Source: Jejuia pallidilutea | Lineage (GTDB): Bacteria; Bacteroidota; Bacteroidia; Flavobacteriales; Flavobacteriaceae | Reading direction: 5' to 3' | DNA: 64,000 bases | NCBI RefSeq assembly: GCF_002973595.1 | Contig: NZ_PVEO01000004.1 | Span: forward strand, 124,001 to 188,000 | Part shown: in pieces, positions 31,026-42,761 of the stretch | Numbering within the stretch: the stretch's first letter is position 1 | Layout of the letters: every line of letters starts with the position of its first letter | Made by a program: the position numbers and the translations under genes | The notes under the pieces: generated by a model | Seen by the model: the letters and a program-made list of their open reading frames with translations, nothing else | What the model was told of the DNA's origin: nothing | The model's database searches: none

Positions 31026-33725
31026 TTAACCGGTATTCTTTAATCCGCTAGATAAAGCATTTATAATGCTTAAAAGTTTGGTTAATGTCTTTTCTTTTTC
31101 ATTACTAGTTTCATCATTTAGTGCTCTCCACGCTTTTAAGTGTTTTATATGTAAATGGTGTAAAACTTTTAATTTTTCGTTTCGCCACTCAATGTTATCA
31201 TATTGGCCTTGTCTTCGGGTGGTAGCAGGCTCATCAAAAAGCTCTTCAATTAAACGGAAACTATTATCATAATCCGTTAAGATTTTAGACATAAAAACCT
31301 TTCTTTCATCGGTGTCATCATCTAAATTAGCATAGAGCGCCATCATTTCTTTGTTAGATAGAATAAGGTTAGTTTCGGTTTGTATCATTAAAAACCTAAA
31401 AAACGACCAGTGTTTTATACTCTTTTTTAGATTTTGAAATGCATCGGGTTTTTCTTCTTTTAAAGTTTTTAGCGCATTGCCCAATCCGTACCATCCAGTT
31501 AAGCTAATTCGCGAAAGATTCCAGCTAAACACCCATGGAATGGCTCTTAGATCGTTAAGGGTTCTTGTGCCTGTTCTTCTAGCGGGTCTTGATCCAATTT
31601 TGCTCTTTTCTAGTACATCTATACAGGTTGCTTTACCGTAAAAGTTTATAAATCCTTCGGTTTCAATTAATTCTCGGTAGTGTTCAAATGATTTTTGTGA
31701 CAAATATTCCATTATTTCAAACGGATAATTGTGCGCATCAAAATTATGTTTACCAATAATATTTTGTTTCGCCACACCAGAAGCTAAAGCATTTAAATTG
31801 TAAGTAGCGGTGAGCGGGTTTCCAAATAGTTGTGCTATTGTTTCGCCCTGAACAGTAATTTTTATGGTTCCATTTACCGTATTGTTGGGCATGCTCTCTA
31901 AAAACCGATGGTATTTTCCTCCACCTCGGCTTATGGTACCTCCTGCACCATGGAAAAAATAAGTTTTAAAATTGTGTTTTGTTGCTATTTCCGATAGTCT
32001 CTCCTCTGCTTTAAAAAGATTCCATTTGCTAGCAATGGTGCCACCGTCTTTGTTACTATCGCTATAACCAAGCATTACCTCTTGTTTGTATTCAATTTTA
32101 GAAGCTCTAAGTAGGGTGGTAGGGTGCTGCAAGAACTGTTCTAGAATTTCTGGGCCATTGTGTAAATCGTCAATAGTTTCAAATAATGGTACAACTTTAA
32201 TGTTTGTGTTTAGCAACTGTGTTTCTTTCATTAAAAAATACACTACGAGCAAATCACTCAAATTACGTGTCATGCTTACTATAAAAGCGCCAATGCCATC
32301 TGTACCATATTGATTAATGTGGTGTCTAACAACGCGGTAACAATCCAGTACATTGTCGGCTTCAGTGCCATAAGACACTGTTATGTCTGTAATAGGCTCG
32401 TTGTTTTTTAAGAGTTTGCTAAGATAAGCCACGCGCTTAGGTTCGTCCCAATTTTCAAATTCAAAATCTTTTTCACCGTTGCTTTTCAATATCTGTGAAA
32501 TGGCTTTGTCGTGAAATGCACTGTTTTGTCTTATATCTAATTTTGCCAAATGAAAACCAAAACAGCTTACTAGTCTTTCTAATGCGAACAGTAAATCTTC
32601 AGCTAAGCCTTTCATGCCATTTTCAATTAAAACACTCCTAAAGAACCTAAGATCGTCTTGTAAATCCTTACTTGATTTGTAGTAGTAGCCAGAGTCTGTT
32701 AAGTTATTCTTAATGGTATTGTCTAGCTTAAGTACCAATAAATTAATGTACTGTCTCCAAGGCTCGTAGGGGTTTCTTTTTATGGCTTTTTCCCCTTCTT
32801 TTCCCAAGGCAGCAGATTTTTTTTCAATAGCTTCTAATAATTGAAACGGAATAGGGTTTGATAAGGCTGAAATTGAAAATTTGGTGGCGGCATCCACCAA
32901 TTTATTTTTAATTAAAGAGAGTGCTTGCTTACGATGTAGCTCTAAAGTTTCTTTAGTGATGCTTGGTGTTACAAAGGGGTGACCGTCGCGGTCTCCACCA
33001 ACCCAACTTCCAAAATTAATTTTAGGGAAAACATCAGGATTTTTTATTTTAGATGGTTTAAAGCCCATTTCAATCCATGAGCCTTTTAAGTGTTCGTCGC
33101 TCCTTTCTAGTAGTTTTGGGAATATTTTACTAAAATAATACACCACATTTGCTCTTTCGTCCTCAATTTGTGGCTTTTCTAGGTATATTTCGCCAGTTCT
33201 CCACCATCTTTCTAATAGGCTAATAATGTTTTCTTCAATATCGTTTTGTTCGAGTTTGCTTAACGATGTGTTTTCCCTTTTTGCTAAAAGTAAATACAGT
33301 TCTCTGTGAATTTCAATTACGGTAACACGTTTAGCTTCAGTTGGGTGCGCGGTTAAAACCGGTATAACATGCGTGTTTGAAATTGATTCTAGCATTTCAT
33401 CTTCATGAATACCTTGGTCTTTCCAAATTTTAAAAGCTTCTGCCCAACTACCTCTAATAGAAAATAGTTCTTCTTGGTTTTCTTTTTTTCTGCGGTATTG
33501 TGTAGCTGCATTTTCTTCAGCTAGGGTCATTAGTTGAAAATAGATGCTTAAGGATTGAATAATTTTATCGCTAGAGAGCTTTTCTTTGTTTATTTCTGGC
33601 GTGTTATTGTTTTTTATAAGATCTATAACGTCGTTTTCATTTATTCTCGAAAGCATTTCAACATAGCAATCTATTATAAACTTTCTGGCGTTAATTATAT
33701 TTTGAAAAGTGTTTGTTTTGCCCAT
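31026..33725 (-). CDS. ppc: Phosphoenolpyruvate carboxylase
   Basis: An 899-aa enzyme of normal bacterial length. It carboxylates PEP to oxaloacetate and so refills the citric acid cycle. Visible signatures include catalytic His127 in LTAHPTEAKR, the PEP/bicarbonate segments VMLGYSDSNKDGG and FHGAGGTISRGGG, GSRPARRTGTRTLNDLRAIPWVFSW, and the conserved C-terminal Asn-Thr-Gly. It is monocistronic on the minus strand and is the last core gene before the cassette-like array that begins just upstream of it. Confidence 0.96.
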   Translation of the reverse strand: MGKTNTFQNIINARKFIIDCYVEMLSRINENDVIDLIKNNNTPEINKEKLSSDKIIQSLSIYFQLMTLAEENAATQYRRKKENQEELFSIRGSWAEAFKIWKDQGIHEDEMLESISNTHVIPVLTAHPTEAKRVTVIEIHRELYLLLAKRENTSLSKLEQNDIEENIISLLERWWRTGEIYLEKPQIEDERANVVYYFSKIFPKLLERSDEHLKGSWIEMGFKPSKIKNPDVFPKINFGSWVGGDRDGHPFVTPSITKETLELHRKQALSLIKNKLVDAATKFSISALSNPIPFQLLEAIEKKSAALGKEGEKAIKRNPYEPWRQYINLLVLKLDNTIKNNLTDSGYYYKSSKDLQDDLRFFRSVLIENGMKGLAEDLLFALERLVSCFGFHLAKLDIRQNSAFHDKAISQILKSNGEKDFEFENWDEPKRVAYLSKLLKNNEPITDITVSYGTEADNVLDCYRVVRHHINQYGTDGIGAFIVSMTRNLSDLLVVYFLMKETQLLNTNIKVVPLFETIDDLHNGPEILEQFLQHPTTLLRASKIEYKQEVMLGYSDSNKDGGTIASKWNLFKAEERLSEIATKHNFKTYFFHGAGGTISRGGGKYHRFLESMPNNTVNGTIKITVQGETIAQLFGNPLTATYNLNALASGVAKQNIIGKHNFDAHNYPFEIMEYLSQKSFEHYRELIETEGFINFYGKATCIDVLEKSKIGSRPARRTGTRTLNDLRAIPWVFSWNLSRISLTGWYGLGNALKTLKEEKPDAFQNLKKSIKHWSFFRFLMIQTETNLILSNKEMMALYANLDDDTDERKVFMSKILTDYDNSFRLIEELFDEPATTRRQGQYDNIEWRNEKLKVLHHLHIKHLKAWRALNDETSNEKEKTLTKLLSIINALSSGLKNTG

Positions 33726-33964: not shown

Positions 33965-34152
33965 TGTTGTAACGTATGTATCGGAAGAATAAACTAATTT
34001 ATTTAATGTTTAGCTTATAACAAAGGCAAGCATGTTTTTGTAGGGTTGGTTTTATGGTTTATTGCCTGTTTGGTAATCTGAACGTTCTTTAGTTTGGTAG
34101 AATCTGGAAGACGTAGGTGAGAACAAGTAATTGCTTGTACACATCGTTATAC
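33965..34152 (-). repeat. Palindromic array element A
   Basis: The longest element (about 188 bp). Its ends TAACGTATGTA and TACACATCGTTA pair, and the right arm GTAGGTGAGAACAAGTAATT corresponds to GTAGGCGAGAACAAGCAATT of element G. It lies between the ppc start and the stop of the first DUF6090 gene. The rest of the 432-bp gap (33726-33964) is AT-rich with no feature that I can support. Confidence 0.6.
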
Positions 34153-34157
34153 TTTCG

Positions 34158-34922
34158 TTACTCACATTTTTTGTCTTTTAATAGCTTTATGGGTTCTTGT
34201 ATTTCTTGCTTTAAATTAGAAAAATGTTGTTTATGCCTAATTTGCATACCCAAAATAAAAATAAGATTGTCCTGAAATTTTATGAAATATGGGTGAGTAG
34301 GGTCGTTAGTCCAATTAATATTTGGTAGAAAAGCAATATGTTCCTTATCAAGTTCTTGTTGTATATATTCAATATCTTGGTAGCCTAATTCGGTTATAAG
34401 CTCAAAATCCGTATATCTTTTAACAATTTCATTCCGATTTTCTTTCAGTAGGTTTAAGGTGTTGTTTAAATATGTACTATACTCAATTAGTCTGTTCTTT
34501 AATTTAATATCTGTTAACAGTTTTAATTGTCCCGAAGATGTTAAATCTTCAAAAGTAATATTACTAGGTACAGAAACATCCTGCCTTAAAGCAACAACAA
34601 ATTTATTCAGGATTGTGCTTCTATCATTTGGTATGCTGTTTAAATCTTTTATAAGTGCTTTGGTGTGTTTTATTCTGTTGGTTGTCTGCTTATAATTTTC
34701 ATCAATTAACTTCTCATTAAGTTCAAGGTCGTCTAAAATTCTACAGTAATAATCAGCTTCAGTAATCTTATTTTTTCTGTTTTCATTCCAATTATTAATT
34801 GATAGCGCAATTAAAATTCCAATAACCACTAATATAATTTCACCAATGGCGTATTTAATATATTTTTCAGTTTTTCCTTCTGAAAGGAGTTGTTTTCGGA
34901 TATGTCTAAAGAACTTAATCAT
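34158..34922 (-). CDS. DUF6090 membrane-anchored protein (copy 1)
   Basis: A 254-aa protein. The start MIKFFRHIRKQLLSEG at 34922 is chosen over an upstream ATG because it matches the start of the tandem neighbour and of the family. A basic N-terminus is followed by one membrane helix (YAIGEIILVVIGILIALSINNWNE, the DUF6090 hallmark) and an extracytoplasmic helical domain of about 200 residues with several coiled-coil-like stretches. Function is unknown. It forms a tandem pair with 35055-35801. It is the leftmost gene of the cassette-like array. Confidence 0.8.
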   Translation of the reverse strand: MIKFFRHIRKQLLSEGKTEKYIKYAIGEIILVVIGILIALSINNWNENRKNKITEADYYCRILDDLELNEKLIDENYKQTTNRIKHTKALIKDLNSIPNDRSTILNKFVVALRQDVSVPSNITFEDLTSSGQLKLLTDIKLKNRLIEYSTYLNNTLNLLKENRNEIVKRYTDFELITELGYQDIEYIQQELDKEHIAFLPNINWTNDPTHPYFIKFQDNLIFILGMQIRHKQHFSNLKQEIQEPIKLLKDKKCE

Positions 34923-34963
34923 AATTATTGCTTTTATTGTTCCGCAAGCGGCTATCTCAACCA

Positions 34964-34980
34964 AAGATCTGCCAGATCTT
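34964..34980. terminator. Small hairpin between the two DUF6090 genes
   Basis: Perfect arms AAGATCT and AGATCTT around GCC, with a T-rich run on the plus-strand side. On the coding (minus) strand the following T tract is short, so this may be a weak terminator or processing site within the pair. Confidence 0.35.
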
Positions 34981-35054
34981 TTATTTTATTTTGCAAAATA
35001 ATGTTTCTATAATCTAAAGAATTTTATCATTGGTTAATGGTTGTTATGCCTTGG

Positions 35055-35801
35055 TTATTTTTCTATTTCCTGTTCAAGTAATTTTAAAATTTCTGTAGCT
35101 CTAATTTTATAGTTTTTCAAAGTTTCTATAAAAATATGTTTAGTATAAATATTAAATCGACTTAGTTCTTTGCGATACATTTCACTTTCAAAAAGATAAA
35201 TTAAAAGGTCTCTATTATATTTCTTTTCATACCAATCTGAAAACCAAGAATATTTTTGATAATTTTTTATGTTTTCAAATATTATATTTTGAATATCTTC
35301 ATACTGATTGTCAATACGAGGAATTATTTGGGAATAAAAATCATTAATGTAATCTGCAAGTGAATCTTTTTTTATCTCGGTTAAAGAATTTGCCTCTCTT
35401 AGTAAATTATAGCCTTTGGTAATTGGTTTGAAACTGTAGGAGTATGTTGTTTCTGGTCTACATATAGAACAATCTTTATAATTCATTGAGGTTATTGTGT
35501 CATAAAAAGAAAGTTTTATTTTTTTGTCTAAAATGTCCTGAATTATTTTATCTTTTTTGTCAAACTTAACAATAGTTCTCTCTATTCTTGCTGTATCAAC
35601 TTTAAGGTCAGTTTGTATTTGTTTGTAAATTTCCTTTAAATTCTTATTCGCCTTATATTCACTATTCCAATTATTAATCTGAAGCGCTAATAAAATTCCT
35701 ATAACAACAAGAATAATTTCTCCAATAGCATATTTTAAATACTTTCCAGTTTTGTTTTCTTTCATATAGTCGTGGCGTATTGTTCTAAAGAATTTTATCA
35801 T
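35055..35801 (-). CDS. DUF6090 membrane-anchored protein (copy 2)
   Basis: A 248-aa paralog of the neighbouring gene. The N-terminus MIKFFRTIRHDYMKENKTGKYLKYAIGEIILVVIGILLALQINNWN is almost the same as copy 1, while the outer domain has diverged strongly (it contains a CSICRP stretch absent from copy 1). The two genes are 132 bp apart without a palindromic element between them, so they behave as one two-gene cassette. Function is unknown. The conserved membrane anchor with a variable outer domain suggests that the outer part carries the specificity. Confidence 0.8.
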   Translation of the reverse strand: MIKFFRTIRHDYMKENKTGKYLKYAIGEIILVVIGILLALQINNWNSEYKANKNLKEIYKQIQTDLKVDTARIERTIVKFDKKDKIIQDILDKKIKLSFYDTITSMNYKDCSICRPETTYSYSFKPITKGYNLLREANSLTEIKKDSLADYINDFYSQIIPRIDNQYEDIQNIIFENIKNYQKYSWFSDWYEKKYNRDLLIYLFESEMYRKELSRFNIYTKHIFIETLKNYKIRATEILKLLEQEIEK

Positions 35802-35823
35802 TGGTTAAGGTTGGTAATAATTA

Positions 35824-35958
35824 GGCATAACGTTGTTGTGCTAGTTGCGTGTTTCAGCAACTAATTTAGTAAACAAAAACCAACGCAAGAAAATACCGAA
35901 GGAATTTTCAGGATAAGCAACAACCAAAGCAATTATTTTTACATGGTGTTGGCAATAC
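35824..35958 (-). repeat. Palindromic array element C
   Basis: Contains the family blocks GTTGCGTGTTTCAGCAAC and TTTAGTAAACAAAAACC, a central hairpin (GAAAAT at 35889 with ATTTTC at 35904) and the end GGTGTTGGCAATAC. It lies between the copy-2 DUF6090 start and the 144-aa gene stop. Confidence 0.65.
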
Positions 35959-36004
35959 GAGCTTTTTTTCTCAATTACAAAAACTTACAACACAGTTGTA
36001 TTTA

Positions 36005-36439
36005 TTATTCCGATTTGTATTTAATTTCAATTTCACGCTCTAAAATTATTACATCGTCTAAATTTATTCTGATTTTTATAACGCCTTCAGGTACAATAAC
36101 TTTTTTGAATTTTCTGTTATTCCAAGTATTATGAGTTTTATTTTTAGCTTTAAATTTATATTCGCTTGATTGCGCTAGGTAATTTCCGTTAATATCAAGG
36201 AAGTCCATTGATGTTATATAACTTTTTTTCTTAAGATTAAACCATTTAACATATAAAGTGACTTTTTCGCCCTCTTTCACACGGATCTCTTTCAAGTCAT
36301 CTAATGGTACATTCTTTTCAGATAATCCAGAACATACAATTAGTCTAGCATTAATTTTTTTTCCACCAGTTTGTCCATAGGTAATTTTACTAGAAAATAG
36401 TATTGAAATAAATAATAAGAATAAAATTTTTGCTTTCAT
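36005..36439 (-). CDS. Secreted protein of unknown function (144 aa)
   Basis: Not recognised. A signal peptide (MKAKILFLLFISILFSSKITYGQ) precedes a compact, basic, beta-rich domain of about 120 residues (LIVCSGLSEKNV, VTLYVKWFNLKKKSYITSMDFLDINGNYLAQ, VIVPEGVIKIRINLDDVII). It is a single-gene unit flanked by array elements C and D. Confidence 0.6.
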   Translation of the reverse strand: MKAKILFLLFISILFSSKITYGQTGGKKINARLIVCSGLSEKNVPLDDLKEIRVKEGEKVTLYVKWFNLKKKSYITSMDFLDINGNYLAQSSEYKFKAKNKTHNTWNNRKFKKVIVPEGVIKIRINLDDVIILEREIEIKYKSE

Positions 36440-36500
36440 TTTAGTTAGTGTTTTTAATTATTTCAATCAATACGTTTTTTTCTATTGCTCGAGTTTAGCA

Positions 36501-36656
36501 TTATTGCCAACGGTCTTTTTTACTTTATAACTGTTATAAAAGTAGCGGGTTTGCAGCACTAACTTTTCTGTTAAACACATACTTATATAATATTTATGTG
36601 TTCAATTTTGAGGTGTCCTAATTAGGGGAAGCCTACAGGGCATTGTTGTGAAACGT
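36501..36656 (-). repeat. Palindromic array element D
   Basis: Starts TTGCCAACGGTC and ends GGGCATTGTTGTGAAACG. It contains GCGGGTTTGCAGCACTAACTT, like the GCGTG...AGCACTAAA block of other elements, and a central hairpin ACACATA (36575) with TATGTGT (36595). Confidence 0.65.
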
Positions 36657-36658
36657 GT

Positions 36659-37309
36659 TTATTTATTCATTATTTGAGTTGCTTCCCAAACATATTCTTT
36701 TCCAAATTCTCCAAAGTATGATATATAATCTCCATTTTTAGAAATAACCACAAAACTGCTACCCGGATAATGATGTTTAAAAAAAAGTTTTTCAATAGTT
36801 TTTTCTGGATCTTTATACCAAGTTAGAATCCCATCGTATTTTTCCAAACCACTACTATCTTTATAAATATAAATCGGTTTAGTTTGAGCAACTTGATTTA
36901 TTCCATCTTCTAATTGTCCGTACCATTGTCTAATTCGTTCTATGTTATAGGAATTACTTTTATAGTTTTTAAATGCTCCAGAATTGTTTTTGTCTTTTCC
37001 AGGATGAAAAATTATAACAATTGGTTTTAATGAATCTAATTCGAGATTCGTAGCTTTCTCTAGCAATAATTCAAGACTTTTTCTATTATTGATTTTCCCT
37101 CGTTTTTCTCTTAAAGTCAATTTCTTATGATTAATTGAATCTCCAGGAATGCCTAATAATTTATTTGTTGAGCGAATTCGATTGAATTGGGATTTACTAA
37201 TTTCTACATTATTTTCATCGAAATATCGTGTTTTGTTCTTCCCAATTTTAGTCCCTGAACAAGAGAAAATTAAAATTTCGATTATAAATGTTAATAGGAC
37301 TTTTTTCAT
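36659..37309 (-). CDS. Lipoprotein of unknown function (216 aa)
   Basis: Not recognised. The lipoprotein signal ends ILIFSCSG. A mixed alpha/beta domain follows, with KPIVIIFHPGKDKNNSG and HHYPGSSFVVISKNGDYISYFGEFG; the alternating strands and the second segment (xSFVVISKNGD) faintly recall a thioredoxin-like fold, but there is no CxxC. Basic overall. It is a single-gene unit between elements D and E. Confidence 0.6.
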   Translation of the reverse strand: MKKVLLTFIIEILIFSCSGTKIGKNKTRYFDENNVEISKSQFNRIRSTNKLLGIPGDSINHKKLTLREKRGKINNRKSLELLLEKATNLELDSLKPIVIIFHPGKDKNNSGAFKNYKSNSYNIERIRQWYGQLEDGINQVAQTKPIYIYKDSSGLEKYDGILTWYKDPEKTIEKLFFKHHYPGSSFVVISKNGDYISYFGEFGKEYVWEATQIMNK

Positions 37310-37318
37310 AAATTGCAG

Positions 37319-37453
37319 GTAACGGTCTAGTGTATGATTTCGTTGCGTGTTTAAGCACTAAAGTTAGCAAATAAATCACAGATAGAAAGTCCGCGAGGAC
37401 TTTTGTAAGTAGGCTATAACTAGCAATGAATTATACACGGTAATGTAGCCAGT
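37319..37453 (-). repeat. Palindromic array element E
   Basis: Left arm GTAACGGTCTAGTGTATGA pairs with right arm ATTATACACGGTAATG. The central hairpin is AAAGTCC (37386) with GGACTTT (37397). Positions 37382-37440 match 38073-38131 of element F at 54 of 59 bases, by hand. Confidence 0.75.
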
Positions 37454-37456
37454 TAT

Positions 37457-37993
37457 TTATTCAGCGTATTTTTTGTATTCAACTATTTTAGCTTGTAATC
37501 TAGTGTTCAGATATTCATTTTTATTTTTTAGCATTTCGCTAATCAATTTGGCTTCATTCAGGTAATTCAAGATTTTGTCTTTTCCCCAAAACTTTGGTGG
37601 TTCTTGAAGGTTAGTAATTCTGTCCGCTAGTTTAACTATTCCGACTTCTTTTTCTAATTCATTAATTCGGTTTAAACTATCTGTCATTTTCTCTTTTTTA
37701 GAAGTCAAATTGTCGTTTTTGGTCAAAGCTTGAATTCCCAAAGCTACTTTTTGTCCAAATTGTTCCTTTAGTTCTGTAAATTCAGTTTTGGTATCTTCTA
37801 AAGTATCGTGAAGAAGAGCTAATTGTATTGCATAATTTATATCAAAATCTTCATTTTCTTTGTGTGCTAAAATGATTTCCATTGCAACATTTGAAATATG
37901 TAACAAATAGTTCGCATCTGTTCCAGGTACTTTTTGATTTTTATGTTTTTCTCCAGCAAACTTTATAGCTTTCTGATATATTTCTTGTGTCAT
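37457..37993 (-). CDS. Small alarmone hydrolase-like HD-domain protein
   Basis: A 178-aa protein consisting only of a RelA/SpoT-type HD hydrolase domain. The metal ligands are in order: KHKNQKVPGTDANYLLHISNVA (His), ALLHDTLEDT (His-Asp) and VKLADRITNLQE (Asp). There is no synthetase or TGS/ACT domain, so it resembles MESH1-type small alarmone hydrolases that split (p)ppGpp or NADPH phosphate. It is an accessory gene in the array between elements E and F and may modulate the stringent response. Another nucleotide substrate is possible. Confidence 0.82.
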   Translation of the reverse strand: MTQEIYQKAIKFAGEKHKNQKVPGTDANYLLHISNVAMEIILAHKENEDFDINYAIQLALLHDTLEDTKTEFTELKEQFGQKVALGIQALTKNDNLTSKKEKMTDSLNRINELEKEVGIVKLADRITNLQEPPKFWGKDKILNYLNEAKLISEMLKNKNEYLNTRLQAKIVEYKKYAE

Positions 37994-38010
37994 TTGCGTG
38001 AGTTTTCTAA

Positions 38011-38145
38011 TTGGCTACGTGTTTATGGTTTGTTGCGTGGTTTATGCACTAAATTTAGCAAATAAAAACCGAATAGAAAATCCGCGAGGATTTTCGTAAG
38101 TAGGCTATAACTAGCAATAAATTATATACGGTTTTGGCAACTGGC
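38011..38145 (-). repeat. Palindromic array element F
   Basis: Nearly the twin of element E (54 of 59 in the right half). The central hairpin AAAATCC (38077) with GGATTTT (38088) has the G-C pair of element E replaced by A-T on both arms. Right end GGTTTTGGCAACTGGC. Confidence 0.75.
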
Positions 38146-38146
38146 T

Positions 38147-39034
38147 TTATTCTATTCCGTATCTTTTTATTATTTCATTTCGAGTTTTTTCATCGGCATT
38201 TTTAACTCCGATTTGAGAACCAAAAATTTGATAATCATGTTTTTGAGAATATATTCTGTCTATTAACATTTTAAATGGTGTTTTATTTAATTCTTTGTCT
38301 TGAACTGCTTTTTGGATTATTGGTAAATATTTCTCCATCATTTCAAGATTTGAATGTTGAATAACACTCCACATAACAGACTCAAATTTTTCACCAACTA
38401 ATGAGATGCCTATATATTTCTTATGTTCTGAAAACAATGAGTCAATAAGTTTTTGATTCTGTTTGTCCAATTCTGGTTGTCTGGTATTATATGTTTGTTC
38501 GTCAGAACCTCTGTATTTTTGGTCATCGATATTGATAATATTAATAAGCTTCACCAAATCATTGTTTAGTTTGTTGTCTGTAATATATTCGTCAATGTCC
38601 AGATTTTTATTACCCTTTTGTTCACTATTACACGATTTGTAATATTGATTGTATAATTCAGGGATTTTATCGTCGAATTTAACCATATCTTTATAAGAGG
38701 TAATGTATTCACAACCTCCTTTAGAGTTTGCTAATTTTACAAAAACTAGTTTTAATAAATCAGTATCTTCTTTAAGAAAATCAAAAGCTGTTAAGATATT
38801 CCAATAATGAGCTCCGAAATATTTATTACCATTTTCTAAAAGACTTTTTTTTGTTTCAGAAAGGACTTCGATACTCCATTTATAATTTTTTGATGAAACA
38901 TTAGTTCTTTGAATGGGGTTGTAGCTTAAGAATTCCATTTCAAAATTCTTTTCTGTAAATGAAACCTTATCCGATTGCGCATTAACAATTTTGAAAGCCA
39001 AAAACAATATTATAAATAGGTTTGTTTTTTTCAT
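38147..39034 (-). CDS. Secreted protein of unknown function (295 aa)
   Basis: Not recognised. A signal peptide (MKKTNLFIILFLAFKIVNAQ) precedes a mainly helical, charged protein with four cysteines in the middle part. The last third (MMEKYLPIIQKAVQDKELNKTPFKMLIDRIYSQKHDYQIFGSQIG) resembles the DUF6624-type segment seen in Bacteroidota secreted proteins, where H-Q-IFGSQ is conserved. This assignment is tentative. It is a single-gene unit between elements F and G. Confidence 0.6.
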   Translation of the reverse strand: MKKTNLFIILFLAFKIVNAQSDKVSFTEKNFEMEFLSYNPIQRTNVSSKNYKWSIEVLSETKKSLLENGNKYFGAHYWNILTAFDFLKEDTDLLKLVFVKLANSKGGCEYITSYKDMVKFDDKIPELYNQYYKSCNSEQKGNKNLDIDEYITDNKLNNDLVKLINIINIDDQKYRGSDEQTYNTRQPELDKQNQKLIDSLFSEHKKYIGISLVGEKFESVMWSVIQHSNLEMMEKYLPIIQKAVQDKELNKTPFKMLIDRIYSQKHDYQIFGSQIGVKNADEKTRNEIIKRYGIE

Positions 39035-39054
39035 TTGAGTGAGTTTTTCTGCTT

Positions 39055-39190
39055 GTTGCTAACGGTTACGTATAAGAATAGTTGCGTGGGTTAGCACTTT
39101 ACTTTGCAAGTACGCACCGAGTTGGAAATTCCGTTGGAATTTCCAAAGTAGGCGAGAACAAGCAATTACTTATAGCCATTGTTGCCAGTA
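39055..39190 (-). repeat. Palindromic array element G
   Basis: Left end GTTGCTAACGGTTACGTATA, right end TATAGCCATTGTTGCCAG. Contains GTTGCGTGGGTTAGCACTTT and a perfect 11-bp central stem (TTGGAAATTCC at 39122 with GGAATTTCCAA at 39136). Confidence 0.75.
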
Positions 39191-39194
39191 GTTT

Positions 39195-40685
39195 TTATTT
39201 ATCTATTAACTTAATGAATTCCACAGGTACTGACTGTAAGTTTATTTCGAAAGATGAAATTTCACCTTGATTATTTGTTTTAAAATTTAATGCGAACTCA
39301 GGGTCCATTACTTGAGAAATCTCTTTAATTGGTTTCATTACAAATACATTGTAATAAAGATGTTCTAGGAAGAATTGATACGTTGGGTAATTCATGTAAA
39401 GATTACCGTTGTTAACCTCAATTTCTACTATGCCGTAACCCTGATTAGTATATTTACCTGCAAATGAAGTTAGGGTATGTGTCGGTTTCTTTTCAGGGTT
39501 TAATTCACTATTGATTTCAGTTGGGACATAGATATCGTTTACAAGTATAGGATAGTCATTTAAATCCGTTCTTGGTAAATTCAATATTCTATTTTTTACA
39601 ATATCTCCTATTATGTAAGGTAAAATTGAATTAGTCTGATTGGTTAAAATAGTTATTCCTAATTTTTGAAAAGGATAGGTTAAAACCAACGTGCTAAATC
39701 CAGAGGTGTTACCTCCGTGATATACTTTATAATCCCCGTTTTGTGACTCCATACGCCAGCCTAAACCATCGCCAAATAGAAAAGCATTTTCTTCATTTTC
39801 ACCCGGTCTAATATTGTGAATAGTTATAGCATTCTGCACAAAATCTTTAGGCAAAACTTGTTCTTCATTAAACTTACCATTGTTTAACCAAGCTATCATC
39901 CAATTAGCCATATCTTTTGCGGAACTCCTAACACCACCAGCAGATTTGTAGTTATGATATTCTTCATAAAGTACTTTCTTGATTTTTCCTTTTGATAAAC
40001 CATAACCAAGTGAATAATTATTTGCCTTTTTCATACTCGTTAAATCGGTGTATGAGTTTACCATATTTAAAGGATTAAATATATTTTTTTCAATATTTTC
40101 TTCCCACGACATACCAGTAACTTGCTCCACTATACCACCTGCAAGTGTATAGCCCATATTGCTATATAGCCAACTGTCTTTTACCTTACCCTCAGGTTTT
40201 AAATATTTGAGTTTTTCAACAACTTTGGGTATATTTTTTTCAGGAAAAAGAACGAGTGTACCGTTAAGGTCTCCCAAGCCACTTTTGTGAGATAGTAAAT
40301 CTTCAATGGTTATTAAATTATCCATTTCAGAACTATAAAATTGAAGTTTCGGAATATGTACGCTAGGTTTATCTTTCAGAGAAATTTTGCCTTGATAATC
40401 TAAAACACCTAATAAAGATGCGGTAAAAGCCTTAGAACAAGAAGCAATTGGGAAAACTGTATTTTCGTTTACAGGTAGCTCGTTTTCCAAATCTCTGTAC
40501 CCAAAACCTTTTGAATATATAATCTCCTTATTTTTTACCACTGAAATTGACAAACCAACGGCTTTATAGGTATTCATTAAGGTTTTTATATCCTCATCAA
40601 TACCATTTAATTCATTCTTGCTCACCTGAGCATAGATTGAATTGGTAATAATGAAAAGTAAAATTGTTAAGATTGATTTTATCAT
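39195..40685 (-). CDS. Beta-lactamase-family serine hydrolase
   Basis: A 496-aa exported protein (signal peptide MIKSILTILLFIITNSIYAQ). It has the class C beta-lactamase/PBP-like catalytic set: SxxK in FPIASCSKAFTAS, YxN in WLYSNMGYTLAG and the HGG triad YHGGNTSGF. A C-terminal beta domain of about 110 residues (DUF3471-like) follows. Probable peptidase or esterase in the periplasm. Antibiotic resistance cannot be inferred. The start overlaps the VOC gene stop by 4 nt, so the pair forms a two-gene unit between elements G and H. Confidence 0.88.
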   Translation of the reverse strand: MIKSILTILLFIITNSIYAQVSKNELNGIDEDIKTLMNTYKAVGLSISVVKNKEIIYSKGFGYRDLENELPVNENTVFPIASCSKAFTASLLGVLDYQGKISLKDKPSVHIPKLQFYSSEMDNLITIEDLLSHKSGLGDLNGTLVLFPEKNIPKVVEKLKYLKPEGKVKDSWLYSNMGYTLAGGIVEQVTGMSWEENIEKNIFNPLNMVNSYTDLTSMKKANNYSLGYGLSKGKIKKVLYEEYHNYKSAGGVRSSAKDMANWMIAWLNNGKFNEEQVLPKDFVQNAITIHNIRPGENEENAFLFGDGLGWRMESQNGDYKVYHGGNTSGFSTLVLTYPFQKLGITILTNQTNSILPYIIGDIVKNRILNLPRTDLNDYPILVNDIYVPTEINSELNPEKKPTHTLTSFAGKYTNQGYGIVEIEVNNGNLYMNYPTYQFFLEHLYYNVFVMKPIKEISQVMDPEFALNFKTNNQGEISSFEINLQSVPVEFIKLIDK

Positions 40686-41143
40686 TTTTCTTTAGTTTCT
40701 AAATCTAACCAATGTTCATATGTAATTATTCCATTTTCTGGATTGCTTTTGCCGTCTAAAACCGAAATAAATTCTAAATGATGTCCGTCAGGGTCGTCAA
40801 AATAAATAGCAATTGCAGGTATCCAAGCGAACACCATTGGTTTATCAGTACCATCATTTAAAAAGTTAAATGGGTTTAGTCCTTGTTTTTTTAAAAATTC
40901 TGAAGCTTCATTTATTATAAAGTTTTTATCGCACTTAAAGGCAAAGTGTCTTCTGTCAATTTCAGATTTAGGTTTTTCCCAAAGACCTAACATTGCTTCT
41001 TTCGGTTCGCCTATCCAAAAAAAGGCTGCTCGTCTTTCTTCTTCGAAGTGGCATTGTTCAAGCCCTAAAATATTTTTATAAAATTCAATTGAACGTTCGA
41101 GGTTTTCAACGAATAAATGGGTTTCATAAAGACCTTTAATCAT
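40682..41143 (-). CDS. VOC-family (glyoxalase/bleomycin-resistance fold) protein
   Basis: A 153-aa cytoplasmic protein with the paired beta-alpha-beta-beta-beta modules of the vicinal oxygen chelate superfamily: HLFVENLERSIEFYKNILGLEQ at the start and IYFDDPDGHHLEFISVL near the end, where His and Glu are likely metal ligands. The substrate is unknown; relatives include glyoxalase I, fosfomycin-resistance enzymes and dioxygenases. It is cotranscribed with the serine hydrolase (4-nt overlap). VOC genes are frequent cargo of mobile cassettes. Confidence 0.85.
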   Translation of the reverse strand: MIKGLYETHLFVENLERSIEFYKNILGLEQCHFEEERRAAFFWIGEPKEAMLGLWEKPKSEIDRRHFAFKCDKNFIINEASEFLKKQGLNPFNFLNDGTDKPMVFAWIPAIAIYFDDPDGHHLEFISVLDGKSNPENGIITYEHWLDLETKEK

Positions 41144-41170
41144 AATTTATTTTCCTGTGTTTTTTAAATT

Positions 41171-41310
41171 ACTGGCAACGGTCTCGTATAACCGTCAGTT
41201 ATGGGTTTATATGCGTTAATTTTCGGTTTGGCACTGGCGTTAGCAATTCCTAGTGGATTCGGACGTAGTCGAATCCGCCGTAATTGCGGTTATACATTGT
41301 TGTGCACAGG
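41171..41310 (-). repeat. Palindromic array element H
   Basis: Left end ACTGGCAACGGTCTCGTATA, right end GGTTATACATTGTTGTGCAC. CGTATAACCG pairs with CGGTTATAC. Central hairpin GGATTCG (41255) with CGAATCC (41270). It is the most GC-rich of the set. Confidence 0.75.
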
Positions 41311-41319
41311 TTTTTTTTA

Positions 41320-41817
41320 TTAATTAATTTCTTTTCGGAAATATGTTTTATTTTTTTTGTCAGTCCAAAATGCTTTTACTTTTCTCAAATAAAGAGTTCC
41401 ATTTTCGTTAATCCGATAAAGTTTGTTTCTTTTCCAATAGAGTTTATTTGGTGGTTTAACTCTATTTTGTCCGCCACTTGATAATGATAACATTATAAAT
41501 TCATTCAATTCAATTCGGTTAATTTTAAGGTCAGCTGAAAGCACTAATGAATCTTTAATTTTATTTCCATTTGAATCTCGAACTTGCAAAGAGTCCGAAA
41601 CTAACTCGGTTTTGAAATAAATAGTGTCATTTGACACTTTCCATTTTCCAGTTGTCCAACTTGAGGAAAGGTCAAATCTGTAATTATGAACAAAGGTAGA
41701 GTCCGATTTCAATTCAATACTTTCCGAAAATCGGTCATTATAAATTCCGACATACTTGTTTTGTCCAAAAGTCAAATTGGATATCAGCAAAATCAGGATT
41801 AATTCGGTTAGTCTCAT
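41320..41817 (-). CDS. Secreted protein of unknown function (165 aa)
   Basis: Not recognised. A signal peptide (MRLTELILILLISNLTFGQ) precedes a beta-rich, lipocalin-like stretch (YVGIYNDRFSESIELKSDSTFVHNYRFDLSSSWTTGKWKVSNDTIYFKTEL) that recalls small Bacteroidota copper-resistance-NlpE or lipocalin-type domains, then a basic tail. It is the rightmost gene of the array; a TTGTGCACAA remnant at 41828 marks the end. Confidence 0.6.
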   Translation of the reverse strand: MRLTELILILLISNLTFGQNKYVGIYNDRFSESIELKSDSTFVHNYRFDLSSSWTTGKWKVSNDTIYFKTELVSDSLQVRDSNGNKIKDSLVLSADLKINRIELNEFIMLSLSSGGQNRVKPPNKLYWKRNKLYRINENGTLYLRKVKAFWTDKKNKTYFRKEIN

Positions 41818-41984
41818 TTTTGGTCAACTTGTGCACAACTCCCCCTAAAAACAATTAAAAAACCCATAAACTCCGTAATTGGAAGCATAACGATGGTTTT
41901 GATAGTGGTTTTATAAAGTATTAAGAGGTGTAATTGTGTTTTTATTACGCCTTAAATGTATGTATTTTTGTCTAAAAAACATAG

Positions 41985-42761
41985 TTACTTCTTACGTTTT
42001 CCGCCTCGTTTTGGTTTTTCCTTATTTTTTATATAAATATGTTTGTATCTGCTATTATTTGGGGCGTTGCGTTCTTCTACTTCAAATTCGCCAATAGATT
42101 TTATTAAAGGGGTTAGCTTTTGGAAACCGTAGTTTCTAGAATCAAAATTAGGACGCTTTTTTTGTATTAAACTGCCAACATCACCAAGAAATGCCCACCC
42201 ATCTTCGTCTGAGAGATCCTCAATAGAAGATTTTATTAAATTTATTTCCTTTCTGGTAATATTGTCAACCGTAGCCTTTTTGCTGGTTTTATTATCGTCT
42301 TCCTCATCGGTGTCGCTCTTCTCGTTGTCTCTACTCTTAAGAATTTCAATATAAATAAACTTATCGCAGGCAACAATAAAGGGGTTTGGTGTTTTCTTTT
42401 CACCAATACCAATAACTTGCATTCGGGCCTCTCGTAACCGGGTTGCCAAACGGGTAAAATCGCTATCGCTAGATACCAAACAAAAGCCTTCAACTTTATT
42501 AGAGTATAAAATATCCATCGCATCAATTATCATTGCAGAGTCTGTGGCGTTTTTGCCTATGGTGTAACTGTACTGCTGTATTGGGGTAATAGCGTTTTCT
42601 AGCAATACTTTTTTCCATTTGCTTAAATGTGGTTTTGTCCAGTCTCCGTAAATTCGTTTTATGGTTGGGTTGCCATATTTGGCAATTTCTTCCATCATCT
42701 CTTTTACATTGCCAGCAGGAATGTTGTCTCCATCTATTAAAACAGCAAGATTTATATTCAT
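41985..42761 (-). CDS. NYN-domain nuclease-like protein with LOTUS/OST-HTH tail
   Basis: A 258-aa protein. The N-terminal NYN (PIN-like) domain has the acidic metal-binding residues in VLIDGDNIPAG, ATDSAMIIDAMDIL and CLVSSDSDFTRLA. A charged linker (SDTDEEDDNKTSKK) leads to a C-terminal OST-HTH/LOTUS domain (ISSIEDLSDEDGWAFLGDVGSLI..., FDSRNYGFQKLTPLIKSIGEFEVE) and a basic end (KPKRGGKRKK). This LabA/DUF88-type architecture is predicted to bind and cut RNA. It borders the cassette-like array and may be its chromosomal anchor. Confidence 0.88.
   Translation of the reverse strand: MNINLAVLIDGDNIPAGNVKEMMEEIAKYGNPTIKRIYGDWTKPHLSKWKKVLLENAITPIQQYSYTIGKNATDSAMIIDAMDILYSNKVEGFCLVSSDSDFTRLATRLREARMQVIGIGEKKTPNPFIVACDKFIYIEILKSRDNEKSDTDEEDDNKTSKKATVDNITRKEINLIKSSIEDLSDEDGWAFLGDVGSLIQKKRPNFDSRNYGFQKLTPLIKSIGEFEVEERNAPNNSRYKHIYIKNKEKPKRGGKRKK

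Follow-up and report, generated by a model that had tools for sequence, protein, structure and literature searches.

What are the seven related elements that lie among nine minus-strand genes in a 64,000-nucleotide stretch of Jejuia pallidilutea DNA (contig NZ_PVEO01000004.1, forward-strand positions 124,001 to 188,000; the whole stretch is hereafter the window), and do they bear on how these genes came together? A preliminary description of the window had read the locus as a cassette-capturing system whose sites differ from the classic attC sites of integrons, and our analysis supports that proposal. The evidence consists of boxes specific to each gene, a uniform orientation of the elements, and a mobile unit made of a gene and the element 3′ of it. 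We conclude, with a probability of roughly 85%, that genes and elements together make up a mobile cassette array belonging to an integron-like system. The nine accessory open reading frames (ORFs; 144-496 aa, 34158-41817) and the seven related intergenic elements were confirmed.

The elements form a family with uniform orientation

A plain pattern taken from the left end of the elements is weak, giving 68 matches (at most one mismatch) versus 47 for the reversed control. It was replaced by a covariance model, R1, built from 38 training elements of this genome, two of which are in the window (39061 and 41177). R1 matches five of the seven window elements (35829, 37321, 38016, 39061 and 41177) with E values of 1e-12 to 2e-20, and leaves elements A (33965) and C (36509) unmatched. 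In the whole genome it matches at least 58 places at E≤0.001, among 59 candidates scored; the window elements are therefore not a product of chance. Short contigs of the same genome (C18, C22 and C24-C26) are largely made of such elements. It should also be noted that isolated elements outside arrays occur among the whole-genome matches, for example in genome G488.

A search with nhmmer of 766 kb from this genome and its relatives gave 309 hits, of which the 275 full-length elements were used in all tests on pairs; this set includes the 38 training rows and one double count (loci L081 and L111 of G020, which overlap by 1 kb). Neighbouring elements no more than 3.5 kb apart have the same orientation in 224 of 224 cases. 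In 173 of 198 intervals, the longest ATG-initiated ORF is antisense to the plus strand of the element; 7 show the opposite direction, and 18 have no ORF of 50 codons. Where one ORF dominates (158 intervals), the median distance is 25 nt from GTT to ATG and 11 nt from stop codon to AAC. The preliminary description had named three tests, all of which were run, and the first of them, a model-based search for further elements, thus bears out its expectation of one orientation. As speaking against a cassette system it had named elements away from genes, random orientation and an unchanging order of genes; apart from the isolated elements, the stretches examined show no such pattern.

Each gene is framed by its own inverted boxes

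Inverted boxes of about 11 nt, adjoining the GTT and AAC cores, flank each gene; they match across the gene and differ from one gene to the next. In this genome, the first six nucleotides agree in 5.77 of 6 positions over 35 neighbour pairs, versus 2.57 after shuffling (best of 10,000 shuffles, 3.54), while the two ends of a single element agree in only 2.36 of 6 (47 elements), near the shuffled value. The original term "palindrome" consequently survives for an inner stem of about 16 bp; it fails for the outermost arms, which find their match not within the element but at the far end of the neighbouring gene. In the wider set, 198 of 225 neighbouring element pairs agree in at least five of six nucleotides, with a mean of 5.50 versus 2.23 for shuffled pairs (best of 2000 shuffles, 2.58). 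Box identity extends over 11 nt except at position 8, which is identical in none of the 198: it is A on the 5′ side of the gene and G (173), C (24) or T (1) on the 3′ side. The arms would therefore usually form a G.T pair at this position on one strand.

The mobile unit is a gene with its 3′ element

Duplicate cassettes within a genome keep the 3′ element in 77 of 77 pairs and the 5′ element in 5 of 77. All but one of these pairs (76) are at least 95% similar, and their outer flanks are mostly different. The 77 pairs represent 12 families, one of which (12 copies in G025) accounts for 66 pairs and the other 11 for one pair each; three apparent duplicate families of G012, an artefact of the overlap between loci L261 and L262, are excluded from the 12. 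Hence, the mobile unit is a gene plus its 3′ element, as in integron cassettes. At the level of sequence comparison, we regard the cassette structure and its past mobility as demonstrated.

Between genomes, the box rather than the element stays with the gene. In five cross-genome families with at least 62% protein identity, the 11-nt box is identical in 6 of 6 pairs, versus 0.6% of 3522 random pairs, and this identity in 11 of 11 nt, mostly between different genera, holds even at 62-72% protein identity. The 3′ elements of the same six pairs are all less than 85% identical (0.64-0.84), and one pair retains its 5′ element instead (0.90). A sixth family, common to G007 and G008 (97.9% over 673 bp), likewise combines a shared box with dissimilar elements (0.66). 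The seventh, which speaks for transfer, links gene 5 of the window to G488, a member of another genus: gene and boxes are 97.5% identical over 571 nt with one base of the 3′ box changed, and the identities of element and 5′ flank are 72% and 57%, respectively. One of the seven, the G028/G017 family (element 84%), may reflect simple divergence. At 25-50% protein identity, the whole box is common to 8 of 16 pairs, all from one DUF6090-like family (labelled by eye); these count for little, because the 5′ leader and N-terminus of that family are also conserved.

A tentative interpretation, to which we give clearly less than even odds, is a modular one, in which the inverted boxes would belong to the gene, and the element, as a module of its own, would be exchangeable. 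Such swapping could perhaps be caused by a weakly strand-biased hairpin that can be cut at both ends. If true, this modularity would explain in concrete terms how a gene comes by its recombination site, to our knowledge an open point for classical integrons.

The site is predicted to fold preferentially on one strand

The inner stem of the element consists of 16 pairs, of which 10 show changes on both sides (covariation), and one G.T pair is kept in 38 of 38 rows. The spacers between stem and core are unequal, 6 nt versus 3 nt. A bulge column is filled in only 10 of the 38 elements, so that there is no constant extra-helical base. When folded as DNA, the strand bearing the G.T pairs is the more stable one in 226 of 242 elements, with 3 ties and mean energies of −19.2 versus −16.6 kcal/mol. 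With a cassette's own boxes joined as they would be in a circle (198 cassettes), the mean is −28.9 versus −24.2 kcal/mol for the other strand; in the array, with unrelated boxes, it is −22.7 kcal/mol. The bottom strand has more stem pairs in 38 of 38 rows, and the favoured strand is the bottom one relative to the gene. PMC2727003 describes the bottom strand as the one used in classical attC sites, and box pairing as well.

A tyrosine recombinase is linked to the elements

The preliminary description had proposed looking for a tyrosine recombinase in element-rich genomes, and one was found. Among nine matches to the phage-integrase family in this genome is a protein of 375 aa, here given the working name IntX, encoded on the minus strand at a contig end (C11:227-1351). 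About 130 nt past its stop codon, a GTT directly followed by the box GGCAAT opens a cassette gene, and the copies of relatives stand beside arrays. Separate Xer-like genes coexist with IntX in the same genome.

IntX scores well above the general integrase cut-off of Pfam and below the cut-offs of all 12 NCBIfam models listed; the best NCBIfam match is XerA_Arch (NF040815; 207 bits, cut-off 220), and the scores for XerD and XerC are 172 (cut-off 330) and 165 (cut-off 335) bits. The integron integrase model TIGR02249 gives 201.6 bits against a cut-off of 265, with model positions 179-243 unmatched. The residues R, K, H, R, H and Y, which we take to be those of the active site, are invariant in the IntX alignment; the IntI-specific insert is absent from IntX when it is aligned with IntI. 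In PMC2426708 and PMC8138268, this additional domain is a mark of IntI, one that is not fully conserved according to the latter.

IntX has in addition an N-terminal domain of about 100 aa (residues 1-94, L038:1070-1351), modelled confidently, with a predicted local distance difference test score (pLDDT) of 86.9. For this domain, Pfam gives sub-threshold matches only (DUF5710 in 4 of 15 members, best E 0.0045), the PDB no sequence match (best E 0.25) and Foldseek nothing below 0.001 (best YciH at 0.17, with XPB and HARP folds from 0.35). HARP and XPB folds bind branched DNA; none of these likenesses is used as evidence here. The full-length model (pLDDT 80.3) has the integron integrase 2a3v as its best Foldseek match, which is supportive only, since the predicted template-modelling score (pTM) is 0.48.

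In a tree of 56 proteins, IntX forms one group (91/80, 26 chosen rows), and IntI a clade of its own (100/100) without IntX. In a tree of 102 rows, by contrast, the recombinases linked to arrays make up two or more groups, and the wider clade around them includes other relatives too. "IntX" is therefore a working label, and the single group of 26 depends on the rows chosen.

Does IntX accompany the elements? At 13 of 16 IntX loci of the G genomes, R1 gives matches at E≤0.1 (only weak ones in L077, L078 and L080), all of them 3′ of the integrase and in one orientation except for two weak opposite-strand shadows. Of 80 named IntX loci, 57 were searched with R1. Matches occur at 15 of these, in Algibacter, Winogradskyella, Seonamhaeicola, Zunongwangia, Flavobacterium, Algoriphagus, Aquiflexum, Rufibacter and isolates or metagenome-assembled genomes; 48 of the 50 matches are on the 3′ side of the integrase in the same orientation. 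The other two belong to L162, which together with L105 and L167 forms a separate recombinase branch (100/100); L162 has its elements on the other side, and this branch may be a second, differently arranged type. The closest named relative of IntX is in Algibacter onchidii (59%). Across 60 genomes, full-length IntX relatives are common and their 3′ ends often near a contig end, as expected where arrays break assemblies. At least three elements are present in 33 of 36 genomes with IntX versus 3 of 24 without it (p=4e-10, the cut for IntX presence having been chosen after inspection of the data). This strong association makes IntX the likely recombining agent.

An attI-like site follows the integrase gene

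The motif ATATA-N2-5-A directly before GTTR, chosen after the data had been inspected, is found within 160 nt of the integrase stop codon at 17 of 41 loci, where 0.3 would be expected. A second type, TTTAT-N4-7 before GTTR, occurs at 6 of the 41, five times after an inverted repeat. The partner box of the first cassette is no more than 140 nt from the stop codon at 9 of 16 loci with a usable element. An attI site in cis of the integrase is one of the criteria for an integron, and judging from these motifs a candidate for it is present.

The following scheme would account for these observations. A cassette would consist of one gene, sometimes two, plus a 3′ element, beginning and ending with a gene-specific inverted box of about 11 nt that abuts the GTT core at the start and the AAC core at the end. 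In the free circle, the two boxes would meet, and the G.T-bearing strand could fold into one long hairpin, a single-stranded site like attC, composed of the box arm, a short asymmetric unpaired spacer, the covarying 16-bp stem and a variable tip. IntX, encoded at the head of the main array, would cut at the GTT core and join circles either to other elements or to the attI-like site shortly past the stop codon of its gene, and would excise cassettes by the reverse reaction. The single-strand mechanism is suggested by the predicted fold and its strand bias, and an exact cut within GTT, like expression from outside the cassette, is presumed.

Relation to integrons and alternative readings

Three other readings (an ordinary integron, mobile palindromes, and RNA or transcription signals) were tested against box matching, the duplicates, the integrase sequence and the tree, and are not favoured.

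The one that survives best is that of an ordinary integron, i.e. a divergent true IntI/attC system undersampled by surveys. Its cassette logic, GTT core and bottom-strand asymmetry would be the same, IntX reaches 202 bits with the integron-integrase model and has 2a3v as its closest fold (at the low pTM quoted above), and a clade uniting IntX and IntI is not rejected (approximately unbiased test, p=0.129), so that the two may be of common descent. Nevertheless, we consider this reading unlikely: the score is below the cut-off and the IntI-specific stretch unmatched, and IntI keeps its own clade. The R-box consensus of attC is RYYYAAC/GTTRRRY, and GTTRRRY is fitted by only 11 of 198 boxes; nor does the variable bulge column provide the constant extra-helical base. 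Furthermore, true IntI above the cut-off is found in 84 of 296 genomes of a sample of the phylum, with one in the class to which this genome belongs and none in its family or order.

What the system shares with integrons such as the Vibrio cholerae superintegron are compact cassettes of a gene plus a 3′ site, a GTT core, long arrays in which varied genes all point one way, pairing of the cassette-end boxes in the circle, a strand-biased folded site and an attI-like site adjoining the integrase. Unlike in integrons, IntX has no IntI insert and has an extra N-terminal domain; each gene has boxes of its own, about 11 nt long, that seldom fit GTTRRRY, so that the arms are unpaired in the array; and the 16-bp stem has conserved G.T pairs. 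The attI-like site, moreover, lies past the 3′ end of the integrase gene, with the cassette genes running in the integrase direction, and elements differ between genomes for the same gene. Evidently, the system works like an integron but lacks features that define one, namely the IntI domain, the R-box consensus and the extra-helical base. With XerA, XerC and XerD, IntX has in common the core and catalytic domains without an insert; it differs from them in the N-terminal domain of about 100 aa and in its linkage to cassette arrays and an attI-like site.

Far less probable is that the elements are mobile intergenic palindromes, resembling miniature inverted-repeat transposable elements (MITEs) or repetitive extragenic palindromic (REP) sequences, which insert themselves between genes. 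Similar elements do occur across genera, and genes with the same box have different elements in different genomes. However, insertion would not create gene-specific inverted boxes at the gene ends, and this reading fails on the uniform orientation (224/224) and on the co-movement of the 3′ element with the gene (77/77). Least credible of all are structured RNAs or transcription signals (terminators or processing sites) between the genes of an island resembling an operon: the covarying stem and the position between co-oriented genes would suit them, but a scan of the window finds no Rfam family above threshold, and the gene-specific boxes, the duplicated units and the linked recombinase with its attI-like site would be left unexplained.

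The array in the window

The features of the window array and its flanks are as follows.

31026-33725, minus strand: phosphoenolpyruvate carboxylase gene ppc (name after the preliminary description), chromosomal flank; its homologue adjoins NYN in G009
33965-34148, plus strand: element A, degenerate, at the ppc-side end of the array; family likeness in the right part only (GTAGGTGAGAACAAGTAATTGCTTGTACACATCGTT)
34158-34928, minus strand: cassette gene 1, DUF6090 family (Pfam PF19578); the ORF listing begins at TTG 34964
35055-35801, minus strand: cassette gene 2, DUF6090; part of the gene start is repeated at 35013-35047 (D7)
35829-35950, plus strand: element B, attC-like site, R1 68 bits
36005-36439, minus strand: cassette gene 3, 144 aa, without a Pfam match; boxes GGCAAT/ATTGCC match across the gene (by eye)
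36509-36648, plus strand: element C, degenerate, AAC/GTT kept at both ends
36659-37309, minus strand: cassette gene 4, 216 aa, without a Pfam match; boxes mismatched, GTGAAA versus ACCTGC (by eye)
37321-37444, plus strand: element D, R1 102 bits; AAT in place of the GTT core (by eye)
37457-37993, minus strand: cassette gene 5, HD_4 domain; boxes GTAGCC/GGCTAC match
38016-38135, plus strand: element E, R1 86 bits; both core triplets damaged, with AAC missing and TTT for GTT (by eye)
38147-39034, minus strand: cassette gene 6, DUF6624; boxes GGCAAC versus AGCAAC, 5/6 (by eye)
39061-39183, plus strand: element F, cores intact, R1 90 bits; R1 training member
39195-40685, minus strand: cassette gene 7, beta-lactamase-like serine hydrolase (PF00144)
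40682-41143, minus strand: cassette gene 8, VOC/glyoxalase, sharing its interval with gene 7; matching outer boxes GCCAGT/ACTGGC
41177-41301, plus strand: element G, cores intact, R1 91 bits; R1 training member
41320-41817, minus strand: cassette gene 9, 165 aa, without a Pfam match; signal-like N-terminus; GTGCAC boxes on both sides (by eye)
41837-41900, minus strand: possible landing site or array boundary, GGGGGA directly followed by GTTGTGCACAAG, with AAAACCATCGTTAT upstream (by eye)
41985-42761, minus strand: NYN-domain gene (label from the preliminary description), chromosomal flank

Elements A and F also share a direct repeat (D8), and a tRNA scan of the window found none. Two further statements of the preliminary description need correction. 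The elements do not separate the nine genes one by one: there is none between the DUF6090 genes 1 and 2, nor between genes 7 and 8, which overlap. The AAC/GTT cores are kept at the ends of, for example, C, F and G, and are damaged in D and E. Given these damaged cores and the mismatched boxes of gene 4, the window array appears to be partly decayed.

No integrase stands beside this array. The NYN gene is present in 11 of 12 genomes of the genus, and the NYN stretches of 10 congeners were compared as the preliminary description had advised; towards the array, most of these stretches cover about 17 kb, and that of G005 covers 7 kb. Only in one of them, G009, is ppc near NYN (394 bp from the NYN match), and there without an element; the array is therefore not a fixed neighbour. 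In G002, an attI-like start of the second type is followed by two elements, which begin 0.6 kb past NYN. The corresponding stretch of G008 has a start of the form ATAAATAA directly followed by GTTACC, with no element detected there. The AAAACCATCGTTAT beyond 41837 recurs on C11 and in Algibacter onchidii, in both cases in the gap that separates IntX from the first cassette (by eye). The window array is best read as a satellite between NYN and ppc, gained after the split from G009 or lost there, and after NYN it would be acted on in trans or be now decaying. A further satellite was seen in G488 (L256:8940-9700), where an ABC-transporter-like gene (by eye) is followed by a small cassette array at an attI-like ATAACGA directly before GTT; the 14 kb covered there contain no match to IntX.

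Arrays without an integrase after unrelated chromosomal genes (the window, G488 and G002) recall secondary-site integration of integron cassettes at attG. Unlike in attG integration, the starts in G488 and G002 resemble the system's own attI, and the arrays could have arisen by insertion or by integrase loss.

Points against a cassette system

Several findings weigh against the cassette reading. No recombination was observed. IntX is on contig C11, outside the window, and contig breaks block its joining to the large arrays of the genome. Its copies in G006 and G011 look broken, as does one of the two that G007 has; R1 finds no match at 3 of the 16 G loci and at 42 of the 57 named loci, while G004 (58) and G030 (37) have many elements and no IntX by our cut. 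These two genomes may have lost, or may borrow, an integrase. Both this cut and the attI-like motif were selected with the data in view. A plain integron model would not predict the same gene on different elements between genomes, as is the case in seven families (element identity 0.64-0.84). The boxes fail to match in 27 of 225 intervals; most of these are long, with a median of 1701 bp, and an intervening element was probably missed in them. Finally, the window array boundary lacks the ATATA...A-GTT motif, which slightly lowers our confidence. The AAAACCATCGTTAT sequence common to this boundary and C11 may instead be what is left of a terminator, for it forms one arm of an inverted repeat on C11 (by eye).

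Distribution and further observations

The elements are present in 35 of 37 sampled genomes of the same family and in 7 of 23 from other families of the order. In a class-wide sample, with 12 candidates scored per genome, they are found at E≤1e-6 in at least 57 of 295 genomes. Integron surveys rest on IntI and attC models, and PMC9024848 reports very few complete integrons in this group: for Bacteroidetes, only In0 in an earlier study, and then, with IntegronFinder 2.0, one complete integron in Salinibacter. The present system looks widespread in Bacteroidota and has an integrase and a landing site of its own, yet neither the IntI domain nor the site consensus, so that it would tend to escape surveys that depend on these two marks. 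Many exchangeable genes have thus probably gone unnoticed. No such system was described in the literature searched, which comprised titles and the beginnings of abstracts, with preprints and most subscription papers outside its coverage. A recombinase without the IntI insert appears here to act on folded sites, and this offers a second system in which the structural rules of single-strand recombination can be tested.

In G025, elements are spread over 63 kb beside one integrase. A cassette of about 432 bp occurs in this genome in 12 copies (L092-L096 and L075), in two arrays about half a megabase apart, and the copies listed have no ATG ORF of 50 codons.

No phage matches IntX at E≤1e-40, and one viral contig carries the element pattern. 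At the same threshold, 66 plasmid records match IntX, and in 6 the match spans at least 80% of the query. Acinetobacter accounts for 50 of the 66 and is absent from the ten matches listed. Near full-length relatives (35-41%) are on the plasmids NZ_CP094530.1, NZ_CP041688.1, NZ_CP012644.1 and NZ_CP111080.1 (Chryseobacterium, Rufibacter and Pontibacter), possibly a mobile form of the system.

The DUF6090-like cassette proteins (window 34158-35801; L103, L081, L234, L141, L240 and L111) share a near-constant 5′ leader and N-terminus (MIKFFRKIRQ...IGEIILVVIGILIAL), with whole-protein identity down to 34-42%. Judged from this pattern, they are possibly encoded by mosaic genes inside cassettes.

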